A DNA stretch of 64,000 bases from Deuterostichococcus epilithicus. Lineage: Eukaryota; Chlorophyta; Trebouxiophyceae; Prasiolales; Stichococcaceae. Location of the stretch: positions 1,166,501 through 1,230,500 of the forward strand of contig JAVTLE010000005.1 in assembly GCA_033439295.1 (NCBI GenBank). The letters are read 5' to 3'. Of the stretch, positions 3,001 to 52,856 are shown in pieces. Every line of letters starts with the position of its first letter. Position 1 is the stretch's first letter. The position numbers and the translations under genes were made by a program. The notes under the pieces are model-generated. The model searched no databases. It worked only from the letters and a program-made list of their open reading frames with translations, and was not told the origin of the DNA.

Positions 3001-6000
3001 GCGGAGTCGTACAACCCGCATGTGCGCTACGGGGCGGCCATGGCGGTGGGCATCGCCTGCGCGGCGACGGGCCTCAAGGAGGCCATCGAGCTGCTGGAGC
3101 CGCTGCTCAACGACCCCACCGACTACGTGCGCCAGGTGTGGTTTAGGGGTTAGGGTTCAGGATTTCTGATCCCTGACAGACTACGTGCGCCAGGTGTGGG
3201 CCACGCGATGCCGACGAAGCCACTCTGATCAAGGCACACGTCTCGCACCCTGCTTCAGCTGTCACACGTCTCACAGCCCAATCAGCCGCAGGCCACAGGC
3301 TTTGGAGCCCCCTTGATGCAGTGCTCCTTGCCAGAAACGACACGGCTCTGCTCGTCGAATCAGCTCGCGGGTCGATGCTAAGATCCGACTGGTGGAAACG
3401 GTTTCACATCTGGATCTGTCGGTGCCCTGGTGCCACAGGGCGCGCTGCTGGCGATGGCGATGGTGCTGGTGCAGCAGCCAACGGCGCGCACGGCCGCCTT
3501 CCGGCAGCGCCTTGCCAAGCTGTCCGCTGACAAGCACGAGGAGATCATGTGCCGGTGCGCACATCAACCCGCGCCGTCGGGAGCTGCTGTGCAGGGTCGC
3601 TGTCACCTTGACTCGCATCATCCGCACGCATGTCCGTTGGTCGACCTGCGGCGGGCACCCGACCGTGGCTCTCGGCCACTGCCAGCAGACAGCACACCGA
3701 CTGCAAAAGCGGCAGTGTGACGTCCCCACATGGCAGCCTCCTGATCACCATCGACCGGTACTTAAAAGTCCCAGCACACCGATTTGCTGTCGTGCCGTCG
3801 CAGCATGGGCGCCATCATGGCGGCAGGGCTGCTGGATGCGGGGGGGCGCAACACCACGGTGGGTCTCAAGTCGCGCTCCGGCTACTTCCGCCGCACCGCC
3901 GTCGTCGGCCTCGCCATCTTCGTGCAGTACTGGCGCGTCTCTTGTGCTCTGCTCTCTCTGTCTTCCCACCTGATCCGGGATCGCCGCCGGACGCAGTCGT
4001 GTGACACATTTGGAGGCTTTCATCTCCTCGCCGGTCGCGCGTGTGCTGCTGCCAGATCGTGCAGGCGGCACGTGTGAGTTGGCCCGCATGGTCATCCGCA
4101 CTTGTATTGCGATTGCGAGTTGTCGTGCAGACACATGAGACTCGCACGTTCCAGCCATCCAACAGCACGATGCTCACATACACATGTTCCCGGACAGGTA
4201 CTGGTACCCACTGTCCTACTTCTCCAGCCTCGCGTTCCAGCCGACGGCGCTGATAGGCCTCAACTCGGAGCTGCAGCTGCCCAAGTTCAGCCTGACCTGC
4301 AACATCCGGCCGTCAGTGTTTGCCTACCCGCCGCCTGTCAGCCAGGAGGCTGCGCAAGAGGTGCGACCTTGCGAACGATGATCCCTGGAACGCCGCCCAG
4401 CAGTGTCAGACTCTGGCTTGAAGACTGCGGCCGCTGTGACGCCGTCGACCCCATGCACATGGCTGACGGTCAGTCAGAGGCCTCAGGCGCTGGTCGGTGG
4501 GACAGCCAACCCCCAGCGCTGCCCAATGACGCTGCGGACGCCGAAACTGTCACTGCCGCAGCCCCACCGAGCAGCGCCTGCTGTCGAACTGCCTCTCCCA
4601 GTCAGCACGCCACCAGCAACGCCCCAGGCGCAGGGCGGTCCGATACCTGGACTGGAAGCCCTGACCTGGCCCGAGAACCGTGCTGCAGGCGAAAAAGGTG
4701 AAGAAGGCGGTGCTGTCGACGACTGCGCGCGCCCGCTCCAAGGCGCAGGCCAAGGCCGCCGAGAGGGAGAAGGGCAAGGCCGCCGCAGGTGCGACGCTTG
4801 GGCTGCGTTGCATTCTGTCAAACCTCGAAAAGGGCGAAGCTTTATTGTCGCTGCAGTCGCCCGCTGCAGTCTGGGGGACGATCGCCCTCGGATTCCCTGT
4901 GTAGGCTACCATCACCGCGCTGCGATCCTCCACGAGTGGAGTTTCATCCGTCCTCCGCCTGGCGGTGCCCTCTGAACATGTGCCCCCGCCCTCACTGTGT
5001 GCAGACGATGCCGCGGCCATGGACACAGACGCCAAGCCGGACGCGGCCGGCACGGCGGACGCTGCAGCAAAGGAGGGCAGCAAGGCAGAGGGCGCTGCCA
5101 AGGAGGAGGCCGCCGAGGGCGAGGGCGAGCCCAAGAAGGAGGCGGCGCCGCCGGAGCCCAGCAGCTACCAGATCGAGAACCCGGCCCGCGTGGTGCCCGC
5201 GCAGGTACCGTCAGCGGTCTCATAGTGTTCAGTCACAAGCGATCGTGTGATGAGTGGTGCCCGCTCAGGTACTGGCAGCAGTCTCGTACTTGTCAAGCAG
5301 CAGTCTCAGCCTGTTCACTCACAAGCAATCGTGTGATGAGTTGCGACTGGTTGATGCTCGAGTCTCCCTAATGGTGTCGGCGGCCTGCCCCGGCCACAAG
5401 GCTGGGCGGCGCCGGCATCGGCCACGACGCCTCGGCCAGTGCCAGGCTGCCGGCGTGCGCCCGCTAGCGGCTGTGCTGCATCTGCTTGGAGCCAGCTTCG
5501 GATGCGGCTGGCGCCTCAAGGTGTGTGCTGCGGTGCCGTGCGCAGGAGAAGTTCGTGACGCAGTCCGAGGACCAGCGGTGGCAGCCAGTGCACACAGGCG
5601 CCAAAAGCGGCTTCGTCGTCCTACGGGACCTGCGGCCTGGTGGGTTTCGCCACCACCTGCACTGTGTGCATATGTGACATTTTGCGCAAGGCTGCCGAAG
5701 CATGTGAAGAGCCTTGTTGAGGTTTTAGTCTGCAGTCGCGTAACAGCGTTCGAGACACATGCGGGCGATGAAATTACTTGGTCGTGACTCGGTCACTGTG
5801 TAGGCGAGCCGGTGGAGCTGGTCAGCAGCAGCGGGCCGCTGGGCTCGGGCGCGGCGGAGCCGCCGGCGGCAGCGGCTGGTGCCGCGGCGCAGCCCGCAGC
5901 AGCACCGGCGCAGCAGCAGGGCCAGACCTCGTCCGGCAACCAGGACGATGATGACGAGCCGCCGCCACCGGAGCCATTCGGTGAGCAACCTGCTGAGTGC

Positions 6001-25434: not shown

Positions 25435-28093
25435 TCATTGTAGCAGCGCATAGACATCTGGAGTGCACACGAGGCGCTTCTCGATGTCGCCCAGCAGCAG
25501 GCCGTCGCCGCCGCTCTTTGAGTTGGTGTTGATCACCACCGCATCCTGCCGCACCTGCAAGCGCCACATCGGCAAGCTGTCAGTCAGGAGGGCCCCCACC
25601 TCGCAGACGCTGTGTGACGGTAGAGGATCACTGCAAAACAGAGCCATACATGGCAGTTGCCGGATCACCCAGGCCGAAGGACGCAGAGAGCAAGGAGCGG
25701 AGCAGAAGCCGACGCGCAGCAGCAGCGCCTTTATAGACGGTGTGCTGAGGCACACCTCGCAGGGGATGCCCTGCGCCATGCTGAAGGTGACTTCTCCCAG
25801 TTGCAGCTTGACTTTGCCGCTCTTGTACACACGCAGCTTCCCCAGCTGCGCATGTGCCGAAGAGTTGCCGTCAGATCAATGCCGGTGTTGAGTGCGCTCA
25901 GGACGATCAGGTTGCAGCAGGGCAGTCGGCGCATTGCACTCCCAACGATTGATCTTCTCAATTACCTGTGACCATCACAGTAGCACGTTCCCAGCATGCC
26001 TGGCTGGCAAGGAGCTACTGCTGTCGTCAGCCTTGGATGCACGTATCGAGATGGCGGCGGCTACAACAGTGCAAAACAGGCGCCAACCAGGTGTGAACGC
26101 CGCGCACCTTGCCGCCGGGCGCCAGCTCGATGGGCAGCGACTTCGGCGGCGGTTCATCCTCCTCTGCATCTTTCAGCTGCAGGCCGGCGAAGGCCGGTTT
26201 GCGCTGCCGGTTGTGTGCTGGCACCAGCGGAGGCAGCTGGAACAGCATCAGCTGCTCTGCATCTTCGGCTGAGTCTTCCAGCCGCATGAAGCCCGCGACG
26301 CTGGCGTCGCTCTCCTGCACAAGGACCACGATCTACTCCTCGGCAACATTTTGCTCGCAGGCAACCTCGTGCAGTTGTGGGCAGCAGTCTTGCGCCGCTG
26401 CAGTGGACGACCGGCACGTCGCTGGCGGCAGCATTTTCAGCTGCTGCTGTGCATCTCCAGATTTCCGGCTGCTCAAGCGCGACCGCAAACAACTCGACCG
26501 GGCCTCCTGCATGCGTCGCCTCAAGTCTCATGTGCATGTGATCAACGCCCTCCGGCACGAAGGCCTGCTGCTGCTGCCACTGACGCGCCCCTTGTGCGGC
26601 GCGAGTCGAGAATCACATGCAGGTGGGCTACCGCCTCCGGCAGGTAGGTTTAGAAGCTGTAGCCCCAGAAGGCTCACATGCATGTGGGCGACATCCTCCG
26701 AGAGGAAAGCCTGCTGCTGTTGCACGCCCTGCAGCTCCGCCTCAGCGTCCGGCGCCAGGAAGGGCAGCATGGTGGGGTAGTACTGCCGGTAGTCAAGCGC
26801 CCCGGTCGGTGCCTCGTCCTCCGAAGCGTACATCTCTGTCGCGTCCGCCGCCGCGCCCGGGTCGGCTCGCCTGGATGATGTCACGACTGTGTCATTTGCT
26901 TGATCCCGAAGGCTGTGAGCAAAAAGCTGGGCCGGGGGCCGTCTCCAGGTGTAGGGAGTACCGAGGGCCATAAATCAGGATCTCCACTGGCCTTATGGTG
27001 CAGCGGAAGCCTCTGCCACAGCCAGCAGCAACGCTTGAGGGGGGCTCCTCACCGCACTGTTGCGGTGCTGCCGCCCTTCTTGCTGCCGCGCCCGCCGCCG
27101 CGGCCTCTTCCGCCGCTGCCTCTTCCGCCGCCGCTGCCGCCGCCGCCCCACCCGGCCTTCATCCCATCTGACTTCGCCTCTGCACCCGGGGCACGTCGAG
27201 CGTCACGCTCTGATGCGCACTGGCCATGCATAGTCCAGCAGAAGCGCATCGGCCGGTGCAAAGGCAGACGAGTTGCCACGTTCAGTGGCAGCTGTCACAC
27301 GTTCGAGACAAGCCTGTCGTAACTGGTGCATGTCCCGATTCCAGTGGCACCTGACTTGACGACTTGTCCACCAAACACCACCTCCGCAGGCCCCTGGTTG
27401 GCAAAGCGGTCAAAGCCCCTGCCGGACCGCTTGCGATTGGCCCGCCATGTGGCATCGCTCTGGGCCTGCACATGCGCCGGCTTGTCTGTGAGCCAGCTGC
27501 AGCCCGGAGGGTGTCAGAAGGGTATCAAGACCAAGACCAAGGCCTTGTTGACACATGTTTCGCAGGAGATCGTCTGCCTGTGTGCATGCTCCAGCACTGA
27601 TCAGCAGAAAAGGCGCACATTCTCAATGAGCGATTTGAAGTCCTCGCCGCCGCCGCCGCCGCTGCTACCAACAGCGTCCTGCCCTGGCGGCCCTGCAGCC
27701 GCCGCCGCCGCAGCAGGGTCCTTCTTTTTCCGGGCGGCTGGCACGCGCGGCGCAAACTTGGGCTGCAGGGGGAACGCGTCGGTGCATGAGCGGGTGTGCT
27801 TTCATCACCTTGTCGTTGCAGGCCGTGGATGCACCGCGTAACGGCCATCTGTGTTTGCTGCGTGGCCGCATCGCCCTGGCATGGTGGCCTGTGATGGTGG
27901 ATCAAAGGCCAGCTGCATCGCGATGAACGCCCACCTTTGGCTTTGCCGCCGGCACGCTGCCCGAGGCTTCGCCTGATGGTCCTGCGCCTACGGCTGTGTG
28001 GTCTGCACTGGCGGCTGCGCCGACCCCCCCGGAGCGCAGCGCGCCTATTCGCACGACACAATGCATGTGCCTCGTGACATCAGGAACAGTCAA
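25435..28093 (-). CDS. RPC4: RNA polymerase III subunit RPC4 (RPC53/POLR3D)
   Basis: Pol III-specific subunit that acts with RPC5 (RPC37) in initiation and termination at tRNA and 5S genes; nuclear. Eight exons join in phase: 27935-28093, 27619-27762, 27351-27465, 27053-27179, 26693-26870, 26108-26314, 25756-25845, 25435-25554, giving 379 residues against about 400 in animals. Seen in order are a basic segment PKFAPRVPAARKKK, a Gly/Arg-rich stretch, DYRQYYPTMLPFLAPDAE, LMLFQLPPLVPAHNRQRKP, then the conserved C-terminal core LGKLRVYKSGKVKLQLGEV and LGDIEKRLVCTPDVYALL. The start is not certain: ATGs at 28093 and 28066 are both in frame. The gene faces away from the tRNA methyltransferase gene next to it. 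Confidence 0.92.
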
Positions 28094-47957: not shown

Positions 47958-50900
47958 ATGGCATCACCATCATCATCACCCGCAAGAAATTCCACATGCG
48001 GAAACAGTTGGCTCGGCTTCTCAATTCCTTGTGCATGTGCGCTGCAGCGCGCAACGGCCGCGGCAGCCCCACAGCGGTCCGCCACGAAGTGAGGCTGAAA
48101 CGATGTGCATGATGGGCTATCGTTTCGCACAATGCACAATCTAAGGCGCATCAGCATTTACTGGGATCACCCGTCAACACTCGTCAGACTAAAGGGCGCT
48201 GCCTCCAGGCCGCAAAATGGCGTGCTAGCGAGCGGAGACCGCAGTGGGGTGTCGCAAGCCGACATCTCCAGCACAGTGGCAGCCCTGGTGCTGGCGGGCG
48301 GCTCGTCCGACAACCCGCTCGCGCGCAATCGCGCCATGCCAGCCATCGAGATTGGCAAGCGCATGCTGCGGCATCTTGAGTGATACCCTCCATCTGCATC
48401 TCGTACACGTCTCGTTGCTGCCGCGAAATTGCAGATTGGTAAATGTTTCTGAGCCTTTGTGTGTTCGGTCGCTGCAACAGGCTCAAATTTGCGGCTTATT
48501 GACATCCCCATCAGCAACTGCATCCGGTCAGGCGTCAACAAGATGTGAGTGCCTGCATGACACTGCGGGTGCCTCCCTCGGCTCGTCCTAGTGTTGCGGA
48601 GCTCAGTGTTGTGGGGTGCACAGACTTGTGAAATTCTGGCTCGTTATCGAGAAAGCGCTGCTGCCTTGTGCCGCAGGTTTGTGCTGACGCAGTTCAACTC
48701 AAACGCACTGAACACACACATCCACACGTAAGCCTTTGCCTGACAGCTTTGCAAGACACCAGCTCAGTCATTTGTAGCTGCCTCAAGCTGAATAAGAGGC
48801 AATTTTTTCGACATTAATGCGACATCGCAGGTGCTACCCTCCCGGTACCTTTGGCAATGCCAGGCAGCGCGGCTTTGTCGATGTGCTGACGGCCAACCAG
48901 ACGCCCAATTCCACAGACTGGTGAGCAGTCCGAGCCTGCAGCAGCCGCACAAATGCGGATGATACCACCAAATGCAGCATCAGCCGGGTGTCCGCGCCGC
49001 GCCATCAACCGAGCCCTTGACTCCTGCGACGGCGCTTCACCATATACAACATCACCCAGCCGTCCGCCATGCGCCATGCAACCCTTCCCTCGTGCGGCTC
49101 TGCACAGGTACCGCGGCAGCGCGGACGCAGTGCGCAATAACCTGGAGAACATCACGGAGGTTTTTGACGGCGAGCCGGTGGACGACCTGCTGGTGTGTAT
49201 GATTTTAGGGTTTTAGGGACAACCTGCTGGGACAGAGTGTCTGTGGCTGGATGTGTGCGAGTTTGCGACATGGTGCGCCCCTGCCGGTTCATCCTAACAT
49301 ACGTATATGTATGCACGGTTGATGTTGTGCGATTGCAGGTGCTGTCAGGCCAGGCATTATACAACATGGTGCGCGCCCCGCCATTCACACAATCGTGCAT
49401 TCTCATGTGTGCACTGGTGTTACCAGACCGCTGGTGCTGTCAAGGCGGGTGCCGAGCAACACGGTGTGCCCGCCGGTGGCACTTTGCATTCCTCTGGCTG
49501 CTGGGTTTGCCTCTCAGCGGATGCGCCTGGCAGGCCCCCTGTCATAGATTTTGAGGTCTGGAAGGGGGACAAGCTGCATCGCGCTTCCAGCCGGGCACCA
49601 GCACAGCTTGCAAAGCACACGAGCGCTAGCACTTGGCGCCGGCCGCGCCTCGAGCCTCAAGCCCTGCGGCAGCCCGGCGCAGCGCACCATCGCAGCAGCG
49701 AGGGGCGACAGTTTGGGCCGCTCGCAACCCCACGCGACGCCTGCGGAGCAGCCTCGCGGCACGCTGGGCGCCAGCGGTCGAGTTCTGCTGCTGCTGTCGA
49801 CGCCCCGGCAGCTGAGGCCGCCACACCCGGGCTGCCCGCAGGACTACAGCCAGGTGGTGGCGACGCACCGGCAGACGGGCGCGGACATCACCATCGTGAC
49901 GCACTCCATCGAGGAGAAGGATGCCGGGCGGCGCGGCCTGCTGCGCGTCAACCCTGACAGTGGTGCGTGGTGGAGTGTGTTTGTGGGATGTGCGCGGCGC
50001 CGGGCCTGGCACACGCCCCGGACGCGTGGCCGTCTCAAGGGTGTTGCGTCGCAGGCAATGGGCATGTGCCGGCCGAGTCGGCCAAGGCCACAGCTGCCGT
50101 GCCAGTTTCGCAGTCTCCTGATGCTCCAGACGAGGGCTCCCCCGAAAGCAGCCCGTGACGCAATCGCGCGTCCCGCAACGGCTGTGCGCCCTGCTGTGAC
50201 TCAACCAGCTGGCCAGGCATGCCCGCTGCGAGGGGACGATCACATGCGCCCAGCCAGCCTGCACGCGGCAATGTGTCTTGTTTCTTTGAGAAAGTGAGAA
50301 AGGCTCCTGCCGCTGCGAGGGCGTGCAACACGACAAGGGGCGACACGCGACCTGCACCCATCACAATGGCACTGGCGGCCTGCCGCAGGCGTGGTGGAGA
50401 AGTTCGCAGAGAAGCCGGGCAAGGCGGCGCTGCAGGAGCTGTCCAAGGGCAGCCGCCACTCCACCGAGGCGCAGCCCTTCGAGGTGCCCCTCCAGCGGCC
50501 AACCCCTGTGGGAGGACGCGCCCCCTTGACCTTTGTGCGGTGGTCTGCGCCGCCCGACGCCGCGGGGGCATGGCCGCAGCGGGACCATCACTTGAAACCA
50601 TACTGTATGCGTCCCCAAACTGGATCCTCAGAAATGCTGCGCAGACCACTGGGGTCATTCGGTGCCATACTGACATCAACTGCGAGCTTCTTTCCTCGCT
50701 GCGCCCTGCAGGCGTCCATGGGCATCTACCTGTTCAAGCGTGCGGTGCTTGAGGAGCTGCTGGAGGACAAGAACCCGGGCGGCACCGGGCGCCAGGACGA
50801 GCACTTTGGCTATGACGTCATCCCGCACGCCCTGCGCAACGGCGCCAAGGTCGGCGCCCGAAGACCCCATCCCCCCACCTCGCCTCTCCTCCCCCATCCC

Positions 50901-52856
50901 TCCCCCAACATTGTCACTGCGTGCTTGTGGCTGCTGCCAGAGGACCCCGCTTGTTCCCCAGGGCTGGCACGCCGCACTCGCGGCGCGTGCGGCCCGGTGA
51001 CGCCTGCAAGCAGCCGCCCCCCTCCCCCCTGCGCGGCGATGGCTGGAGGGCGGCCCGGCACGCAGCTCAGGCTGCTTCACGGTCGATCAGGCTGCTGATT
51101 TTTGCACTAGTCAGGCATTGATCAGGGTTTGGCGGTGCCCTCCGCAGGTGGTGGCGCACCACCACGACGGCTTCTGGCTGGACGTGTCCACGCTGCGAAA
51201 TTTCTTCGACATCAACCTGTCGCTGGCGAAGCGCGACGCGCCGCTGTCCATCGAGGAGATCCACAAGGGCATCGTCTCCCGCGGTGAGTCGCCCGCCTGA
51301 CCACCCCTGCCACAAACCGCCGTGCCCGCTTTCCAAAAGGGGAGGTCTGCAAGGGCATCCTCTCCCGCGGTGCGTGTTCAGGCCCCTTCCGCGTCGTCTG
51401 TCCGTTCCTGCGGCGCGCCCTCCGTGCACTGCACCGCACCGCACTGCCGAGGTTCCCTCCTGCCTGTTGTGCGCATGGTCCGCACCACCGCACCACACAG
51501 GCCGGCTGCCCGGCTGCCGAGCCGCGGCGCAAGGGTCACAGTGTAGCCGCCTGCCTGCCAACTGGGAACTGCATGGAACTGCATATGTCATCCTGTACCT
51601 GCCGCGACGCAGCAAGGGCGTCGAACACCTGGCTAACCGCCTCCTTCCAAGCTCTTCCAACACGCCCTTGCAGCACCCCCTTGCCCCTGCCGCAGGCTCC
51701 TTCTGCCCGCCGGCCATCATCAGCCACTGCGAGCTGGACAACGCCCTGGTGGGCGAGGGCTGCGTGCTGCGCCACTCCACGCTCCGCAACGTGGTGCTCG
51801 GCTCCAACGCCTTCATCGACGCCGGCTGCGTCCTGGAGGACACCATCCTGATGGGCAACAGGCGCGTCGCAGGGATCGAACGGCGGCACGCTGCATGCGC
51901 TGGCACAAAGAGCTCACCTTGTGAGATGTACAGCGCTTGACTGCGGCGTCTGCGGGCGCCGATGTCGCCCGCCGAGAGCAGTGCTGGAGGAGGTCAGGGG
52001 GGGAGGATTGCAGCAAGGTCACCCTGCCGGCTGTTGCCTGCTGCATGCACGTTGCGACCAGGATGTGGTCCTGCCGCCACCAGCGGCGCCTGTTCCTGCC
52101 GCAACCGGCGAGCTCCCCTTCCCGTCGCTGCTGCAGCTTCTACCAGAACGACGCGGCGCGCGCCGAGACGCGCAAGGCGGGCGAGCCCGTGCTCGGTGCG
52201 TTAAACCCTAAACCCTAATCCAAAGCAGCTCGGTGCGGTGCCATGAGCTGTTTTGGCCACAGAGGATGGCTAGTTCCGTCGTTACTTGACGCAAGCTTTG
52301 TATCTGGGTGCCGAGAGAGCAGCACCCCTGTTCTTCCGTGTCCACATGCGTCCGTGACCGTCAAGGTGTGTGTGCTTTCCACCCGGTTCAGAGGATGCTG
52401 TGTCCATCTGCAGGCATCGGGCGCAACACCCAGATCCAGGGCGCAATCATTGAGAGCAACGTCAGCATCGGGGCCGACGTAACCATCCGCAACGCCGCCG
52501 GCGTGCAGGAGGCCGACCGCTCCGAGACCGGCGGCTACATCATCCAGGTGCGCATGGGAGTACCATTGCTTTATTTCCCCTGCACCTGCATGCAGTACAA
52601 ACCTATGACACTTGACTCCATCGGATGCAGTGGCTGCCCCATGTTAGTAAAGCTGGTGTGCACACATTGTCTAGTGGCTTGACACAGCACGGTCGCGACT
52701 CTGAAGCCGAGATCAGCCGGGTCCGGTGTCTGGCTTGGCACAGATGCCAGCCTTGCCCAGTGCACGGCTCGGTGTCTGATGTGCTTGCGCCTGCTGCAGG
52801 ACGGCGTCATCCTGGTGCTCAACGGCGCAACCATCTTGGACGGGACCCGCATCTGA
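47958..52856 (+). CDS. ADP-glucose pyrophosphorylase-like subunit, probably catalytically inactive
   Basis: AGPase makes ADP-glucose for starch synthesis in the chloroplast. Fifteen exons join in phase to 507 residues: 47958-48088, 48188-48354, 48481-48544, 48677-48727, 48831-48920, 49108-49192, 49339-49368, 49842-49962, 50389-50483, 50712-50849, 51148-51283, 51696-51861, 52137-52195, 52414-52547, 52800-52856. The first exon, MASPSSSPARNSTCGNSW, looks like a transit peptide and fits by phase. Core landmarks are RLIDIPISNCIRSGVNKM, FVLTQFNSNALNTHI, YRGSADAVRNNL, VVEKFAEKPGK, ASMGIYLFKRAVLEELL, DGFWLDVSTLRNFF, and a left-handed helix domain ending GVQEADRSETGGY and ILDGTRI. The nucleotide loop reads LAGGSSDNPLARNRAMPA instead of GGGxGTRLYPLTxxRAKPA, and the GDH motif reads SGQALYNM. 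Introns after 48354 and 51861 are GC-AG. Confidence 0.94.
49181..49230. repeat. Donor-junction repeat around TTTTAGGG x2
   Basis: The end of exon 49108-49192 plus one intron base (GACGACCTGCTGG, 49181-49193) recurs as GACAACCTGCTGG at 49218-49230. Two tandem TTTTAGGG units occupy 49203-49218 between them. Confidence 0.88.
51255..51372. repeat. Duplicated exon end and splice donor in AGPase intron
   Basis: The last 29 bases of exon 51148-51283 plus GTG (51255-51286) recur at 51341-51372 with about 28 of 32 matches. Both copies carry a usable donor (GCG|GTGAGT and GCG|GTGCGT). Only the first is needed for the conserved frame. Confidence 0.85.
52191..52237. repeat. Donor-junction repeat around CCCTAAA x2
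   Basis: GCTCGGTGCG spans the donor of exon 52137-52195 (52191-52200) and is repeated exactly at 52228-52237. Between them 52201-52220 reads TTAAACCCTAAACCCTAATC, two units of the TTTAGGG telomere repeat in reverse orientation. Confidence 0.88.

Follow-up and report, generated by a model that had tools for sequence, protein, structure and literature searches.

Short interstitial telomeric sequences in mammalian genomes are attributed to break repair, and microhomology at the break implicates telomerase in their origin (PMC2246262); addition or capture of telomere repeats at breaks has been described for mammals (PMC2246262, PMC7215372). Judged from loci with known empty sites, a minority of these insertions is accompanied by target duplications, 4.6% in rodents and 16% in primates (PMC2246262) and 4.5% of the loci in horse (PMC7215372). 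Human tracts are reported as absent from exons and as intronic in 31% of cases, a placement judged compatible with random insertion, and the authors call an effect on splicing interesting to test (PMC7215372). In Arabidopsis and rice, telo boxes are reported to favor 5' UTRs and to occur at or below expectation in introns overall, and in Arabidopsis the first two introns contain more of them (PMC3022908). For Daphnia, a gain of introns with short direct repeats is discussed, and the status of this process in Drosophila is given as doubtful (PMC3443670). Our searches of open-licence papers turned up neither a description of telomere tracts that cluster at splice junctions nor a named mechanism by which telomere repeats would come to lie at splice sites.

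The genome of Deuterostichococcus epilithicus contains short tracts of its own telomere repeat at internal sites (terminal arrays of TTTAGGG and internal 14-mers), and these tracts are concentrated at exon edges. Its AGPase, the TTTAGGG telomeres, the GC content and the style of its introns point to a green alga. The three cases that prompted our analysis lie in a window of 64,000 nucleotides, by which we mean the whole stretch of DNA that was analyzed first. The clearest of them is in the RPN2 gene, where the following features adjoin (the slash marks the splice junction here and below):

3121 to 3141, forward strand: junction copy 1, the last 15 bases of an RPN2 exon and the first six bases of the intron (CAG/GTGTGG); donor in use.
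3142 to 3178, forward strand: telomere-like insert of 37 bp, starting with TTTAGGGGTTAGGGTTCAGG; G strand in gene sense.
3179 to 3199, forward strand: junction copy 2, an exact repeat within the intron; splicing from it would lengthen the message by 58 nt and put it out of frame.
3136 to 3438, forward strand: RPN2 intron holding the insert and copy 2, from gene model and protein join.

The sequence GACTACGTGCGCCAGGTGTGG forms both copies, identical in 21 of 21 bases at an offset of 58 bp, and the 37 bp between them read TTTAGGGGTTAGGGTTCAGGATTTCTGATCCCTGACA. An unsupervised gene finder placed the exon end at 3135 and the start of the next exon at 3439, and the spliced RPN2 product aligns across this join to the PSMD1/RPN2 homolog 8amz_N (E 3.9e-204); since the join is backed by homology, the first copy is the donor in use. 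The flank duplication has a score of 21, whereas none of 872 controls with cross-paired flanks (109 sites × 8) scored 12 or more, which rules out a chance origin. The initial annotation, which had described this junction as duplicated exactly around a telomere-like stretch, is thereby borne out. Two repeat variants of the insert, TTAGGGGTTAGGG and TTCAGGG (the latter as TTCAGG), also occur in the terminal array of contig C1, and TTCAGGG follows five of the 106 telomere tracts that we sampled (see below); variants common to the insert and the terminal array fit a telomeric source. The insert has no clear likeness to the sequence after copy 2 (p 0.105). Its left part may carry G-strand-like repeats and its right part C-strand-like bases (TGATCCCTGACA), an arrangement that extension of both broken ends ahead of their union might have left. 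Taken as a whole, the RPN2 feature is probably a repair scar.

The second and third cases are in AGPase, as judged from a match to 1yp2_A (E 1.6e-61):

49180 to 49193, forward strand: junction copy 1, with the exon end at 49192.
49194 to 49216, forward strand: spacer with TTTTAGGGTTTTAG; the telomere-like tract, 49203 to 49218, runs into copy 2.
49217 to 49230, forward strand: junction copy 2, 13 of 14 bases, donor GT missing.
52191 to 52200, forward strand: junction copy 1, GCTCG/GTGCG, with the exon end at 52195.
52201 to 52227, forward strand: spacer TTAAACCCTAAACCCTAATCCAAAGCA; C strand in gene sense.
52228 to 52237, forward strand: junction copy 2, 10 of 10 bases.

The first pair scores 9, with 2.5 of 109 sites expected at 9 or more, and the second, C-rich in gene sense, scores 10, with 0.5 of 109 expected at 10 or more. 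The RPN2-like arrangement previously noted for these introns is present in both, but in weaker form (13/14 without the GT, and 10/10). The window holds only three tracts with at least two relaxed units and at least 12 nt, and all three adjoin a donor. No known structured RNA was found in the window at gathering scores.

To place these cases in the genome we used the 14-mer TTTAGGGTTTAGGG, which has 318+301 occurrences in the 46.8-Mb assembly, terminal arrays included; its reversed control has 0 occurrences there. Our sample comprises 106 sites with two exact TTTAGGG units, all away from contig ends. On contigs C1 and C3, 22 internal sites were found among the first 100 14-mer matches listed. 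The others stem from 85 listed places on other contigs, for which a non-T base was required seven places upstream, so that internal sites with a T there were left out; one of the 85 (L092), near a contig end, was dropped. The sites lie in loci of 10 kb (22), 1 kb (20) and 221 bases (64), the direction of introns being less certain in the last. An unsupervised exon/intron model, trained on the window and 20 loci (L035–L054; 264 kb in all), yielded 583 introns with a median of 227 bp, donors like CAG/GTGCG and acceptors like YGCAG/G. It agrees with homology at the RPN2 exon end and places the AGPase ends at 49192 and 52195; it overlooked one AGPase exon of ten residues, and the exons and introns of other genes are predictions. 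A doubtful 40-bp predicted intron of L044 was kept in the counts.

Predicted introns contain 97 of the 106 sampled tracts; nine are intergenic and none is in a predicted exon. When the exon lies 5' of the G strand, tract density is 2.2 per bp at 5–9 nt from the exon, 2.8 at 10–14, 1.8 at 15–19, 1.2 at 20–29 and 0.25–0.33 at 30–99 nt, compared with 0.2–0.8 within 30 nt and 0.15–0.27 beyond on the other side of the G strand. Both intron ends are known for 35 of the 42 sites in the longer loci, and 24 of these 35 tracts lie at most 30 nt from an edge, where 10.8 are expected; this number was reached in 0 of 20,000 simulations. Of the placements within 30 nt in this set, 19 have the exon 5' of the G strand and six have it at the opposite side (5.9 expected each). 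Chance placement is ruled out by the simulation together with the permuted units described below. The even spread along introns that the initial annotation had named as speaking against its proposal was not observed; tracts are concentrated near donors. Its wording that they lie always at a 5' splice site was too narrow, since the 97 intronic sites give 25 placements within 30 nt of an acceptor (G strand directed away from the exon in 22, toward it in 3) besides 36 within 30 nt of a donor (24 away, 12 toward), and 37 of the sites have no placement within 30 nt of either. Acceptors thus show enrichment as well, in the CCCTAAA orientation that puts no AG ahead of them, which rules out a donor-only effect.

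The reading we favor, and hold to be rather more probable than its competitors together, is that a known process, the repair of breaks with telomeric filler, is concentrated at exon edges in this genome. At RPN2, a break would have straddled the donor with its ends offset by about 21 nt, and filling in of the staggered ends would have duplicated the junction. Short telomeric DNA, either made by telomerase or taken from a chromosome end, would then have been joined in. The outer junction copy would have stayed the working donor, the net effect being 58 bases more intron, and such inserts would be tolerated, as splicing removes them. The edge bias has two candidate causes, more frequent insertion at edges or better retention of inserts there; we infer a break and a telomeric source of the DNA, and insertion rather than retention may be the cause of the concentration. 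As to the original suggestion that breaks near donors were healed by telomere capture, the donor concentration agrees with it and it names the best available mechanism, but acceptors are enriched too and duplication is mostly absent.

Known systems match this picture in part. The tracts resemble mammalian short interstitial telomeric sequences, described as short internal repeats with flanks that are unmodified, deleted or, in a minority, duplicated, and as absent from exons in human. Unlike the human tracts, whose reported placement, 31% intronic, is compatible with random insertion, the tracts here crowd intron ends and are far more numerous than expected within 30 nt of exon edges; the fit of human tracts to random placement with regard to introns counts against edge-concentrated break repair (PMC7215372). 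Random placement is a trait described for the human tracts and does not define an origin by break repair. Plant telo boxes are likewise short telomere motifs in genes, for which telomerase activity at free 3' ends has been proposed, but they are reported to favor 5' UTRs, whereas the enrichment here is at intron ends (PMC3022908). Intron gain by break repair shares the staggered break, the fill-in, the direct repeats around a filler and the tolerance through splicing. There, however, the repeats flank the whole new intron, whereas copy 2 of RPN2 (3179–3199) lies inside the pre-existing intron 3136–3438.

Motif counts made without gene models give a similar picture for tracts. The word GGTGNG precedes the G strand of a tract at 4.6 times background at 5–15 nt (10 cases) and 6.5 times at 0–5 nt (7 cases), and follows it at 0.5 and 0 times background at these distances. 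The acceptor core CTGCAG, on either strand, precedes tracts at 3.8 and 2.8 times background (8 and 3 cases) and never follows them; the antisense donor CNCACC follows them at 1.8 times background. For single units at a gap of 0–12, the genome has 249 GGTGNG..TTTAGGG (reversed pattern 34), 112 GGTGNG..CCCTAAA (23), 105 CTGCAG..TTTAGGG (10) and 39 TTTAGGG..CTGCAG (3). About 90 are expected per pattern, by arithmetic from the 3473 genomic TTTAGGG (terminal arrays included) and the word rates, so that the respective ratios of observed to expected are 2.7, 1.2, 1.2 and 0.4. With single units, then, only the G strand at donors is clearly in excess, and ahead of acceptors the G strand is depleted. 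That the excess at GGTGNG is 2.7-fold in one orientation and 1.2-fold in the other, and 1.2-fold at CTGCAG, weighs against break repair at edges.

Because the longer loci were picked for carrying a tract, introns with a sampled 14-mer were left out of an independent test, although even then the loci were not drawn at random from the genome. In this test, telomere 6-mers were compared with the mid-intron rate in those of the 542 remaining introns that had at least 160 bp. At 4–40 nt from donors there are 52 on the G strand (6.4-fold) and 38 on the C strand (3.9-fold); within 40 nt of acceptors there are 40 on the C strand (4.3-fold) and seven on the G strand (0.9-fold). At donors, 19 further composition-matched 7-nt units gave ratios of at most 2.0 (G) and 2.5 (C; two more above 2), and the best control on the C strand at acceptors, AGGTTTG, reached 3.6. 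Since controls stay at or below 2.0- and 2.5-fold at donors but reach 3.6-fold at acceptors, the donor effect is telomere-specific and the acceptor effect partly is not; telomere specificity is weak there, which counts against the favored reading, and the enrichment is in part a general preference for C-rich words. With sampled tracts included, donors have 11 of the 17 G-strand tracts within 30 nt (1.8 expected) and acceptors have none, while 11 of 25 C-strand tracts are near acceptors and four near donors (3.8 expected each); for the control TTGAGGT, six of 12 C-strand tracts are near acceptors. When donor placement was compared with that of controls, Fisher tests gave p 0.007 and 0.006. Intronic telomeric tracts of at least 9 nt other than the 14-mers lie within 30 nt of a donor in nine of 13 cases, the window's three included. 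The window alone has 17 (24.8-fold) and 20 (6.6-fold) donor-side telomere words, which overlap within one tract, are counted more than once and include the three prompting cases.

Across 61 edge placements, the G strand is directed away from the exon in 46. A strict polarity rule, by which telomerase would always extend the exon-side end, is ruled out, as both orientations are enriched at donors (24 versus 12 placements; 6.4- and 3.9-fold), the G strand more so. TTTAG before an acceptor would bring a false AG, and the G-strand orientation is scarce there, so that AG avoidance explains much of the strand bias. We also observed that CTGAC is 3.6-fold enriched near acceptors in introns of the window and L035–L054; it is likely the branch-point word of the species. 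In L126 and L139, tracts follow apparent GC-type donors (AAG/GCAAG). At about 4950–5060 of L040, by eye, a telomere-rich stretch lies between CCATCCAG/GTTTAGGG and GCCCGCAG/GCTGG; it looks like a short intron built largely of telomere repeats, and the donor of the gene model lies elsewhere.

The preferred orientations bear on a different explanation, namely that tracts enter introns anywhere and are retained close to splice sites for their aid to splicing, as G runs at donors and as CTAAAC or C-rich sequence at acceptors. The G strand is indeed favored at donors and the C strand at acceptors, C-rich words in general are enriched near acceptors, and G-quadruplex motifs are reported as about 3-fold enriched near animal splice junctions (PMC9065059). 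Yet GGG is not raised near donors (1.81, 1.11, 1.21 and 1.28 per 100 at 6–56 nt versus 1.85 at 56–86 nt), which speaks against G runs being generally required and rules out general G-richness near donors as the cause. Moreover, the C strand is also enriched at donors, and the non-telomeric junction duplications described below would be left unexplained. Such selective retention is a possible but rather unlikely account.

Flank duplications are rare among the tracts. For 109 sites (the 106 and the window's three), cross-paired flanks give an expectation of 0.5 at a score of at least 10, and four sites reach it: 3136 (21), L107 (15, donor), L050 (10, acceptor) and 52196 (10). Among sampled sites these are two of 106 (L107 and L050), a lower bound, as they were detected without empty sites; so small a share counts against the favored reading. 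As in mammalian break-repair insertions, target duplication thus marks a minority of loci; most sampled tracts have no detectable flank duplication, which rules out that tracts are always duplicated and leaves donor-copy flanks, once thought a general pattern, as the exception.

Duplication of junctions, at donors and acceptors alike, is a more general trait of this genome and occurs without telomere repeats as well. With a strict filter (introns of at least 150 bp, no low-complexity copies, some filler between the copies), we found copies of the junction inside the intron for 10 of 436 donors and nine of 436 acceptors. The same filter gave 3 of 436 each at 15 nt inside, 0–1 of 333–437 per offset at 30–120 nt inside, six of 2571 overlapping windows tiled over intron interiors and 12 of 1287 intergenic windows, the last falling in five of 41 stretches. 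The junction rate is thus about nine times that of intron interiors but only about twice that of intergenic DNA. Under a looser filter, intergenic DNA reached the junction rate (14/432 versus 18/558 at donors and 16/561 at acceptors), but these counts take in low-complexity copies and very short predicted introns and are superseded by the strict ones.

These rates also bear on whether insertion is even and old inserts merely persist longer at intron edges than in the middles. Intron edges are commonly more constrained, as such slower turnover would require, and a conserved exon copy should roughly double the time over which a duplication is detectable. The strict counts at donors and acceptors, however, exceed those of interior windows by more than a factor of two. 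In addition, tracts peak at 5–29 nt, largely outside the donor core, and the roughly 7–11-fold drop beyond 30 nt would seem steep for turnover alone. We consider this explanation improbable, more so than selective retention.

In the window and L035–L054, 17 distinct duplications span a junction, nine at donors and eight at acceptors, with copies of 13–39 bp. Many of the copies stop 3–5 bases into the intron, at GTG or GCAG. Only one filler, at 3121–3199, is telomeric; most junction duplications carry non-telomeric filler. Examples without telomere repeats in the window are:

5190 to 5221, forward strand: copy 1 in the RPN2 model, with copy 2 at 5254 to 5285 (28/32); filler like the sequence after copy 2, a plain tandem duplication.
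26674 to 26700, reverse strand: copy 1 in a minus-strand gene, with copy 2 at 26613 to 26639 (23/27); 34-bp filler.
51264 to 51286, forward strand: copy 1 in AGPase, with copy 2 at 51350 to 51372 (22/23); 63-bp single-copy filler.

Near 2671 of L036 and 465 of L052, direct repeats of 56 and 49 bp flank short predicted introns of 93 and 68 bp, respectively; these introns may have arisen recently by insertion accompanied by duplication, or the gene finder may have misread coding repeats.

The fillers speak to the two remaining alternatives. A break-free origin, in which the junction was duplicated in tandem or by template switching and the filler later lost its likeness, would suit the three of 17 fillers that resemble the sequence after copy 2 and are plain tandem duplications, including 5190–5285 of the window. 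The other 14 show no clear likeness to it (four with uncorrected p of 0.015–0.07), and at 3121–3199 the copies are identical in 21 of 21 bases although the filler lacks clear likeness and is telomeric; this account is very unlikely. Least probable of all is a mobile element with telomere-like ends and target-site duplications of variable length: target-primed insertion leaves copies around inserts like the 13–39 bp ones here, but the flanks of the 106 tracts share, by eye, only telomere variants, and the two of 17 fillers searched (121 and 65 bases) are both single copy, which rules out for these two that they were copied from elsewhere; neither of the two shows the multi-copy shared sequence of introner-type elements.

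Break repair with telomeric filler remains our preferred reading. A broader version of it is tentative and in our view more doubtful than not, in part owing to the comparison with intergenic DNA: exon/intron junctions could be favored places for break-and-fill insertion, whether the filler is telomeric or not, and each event would duplicate the junction while the outer copy stays in use, so that introns would lengthen stepwise from their edges. Telomere additions would then be a visible tracer, and selection would remove mainly those that place an AG before acceptors.

The findings touch on how introns gain length and on whether splice junctions are mutational hot spots. As inserts with a known source and a readable orientation, telomere tracts can trace where breaks are filled. 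They also call for caution, since in such genomes repair debris close to splice sites may be mistaken for a splicing signal in motif searches.
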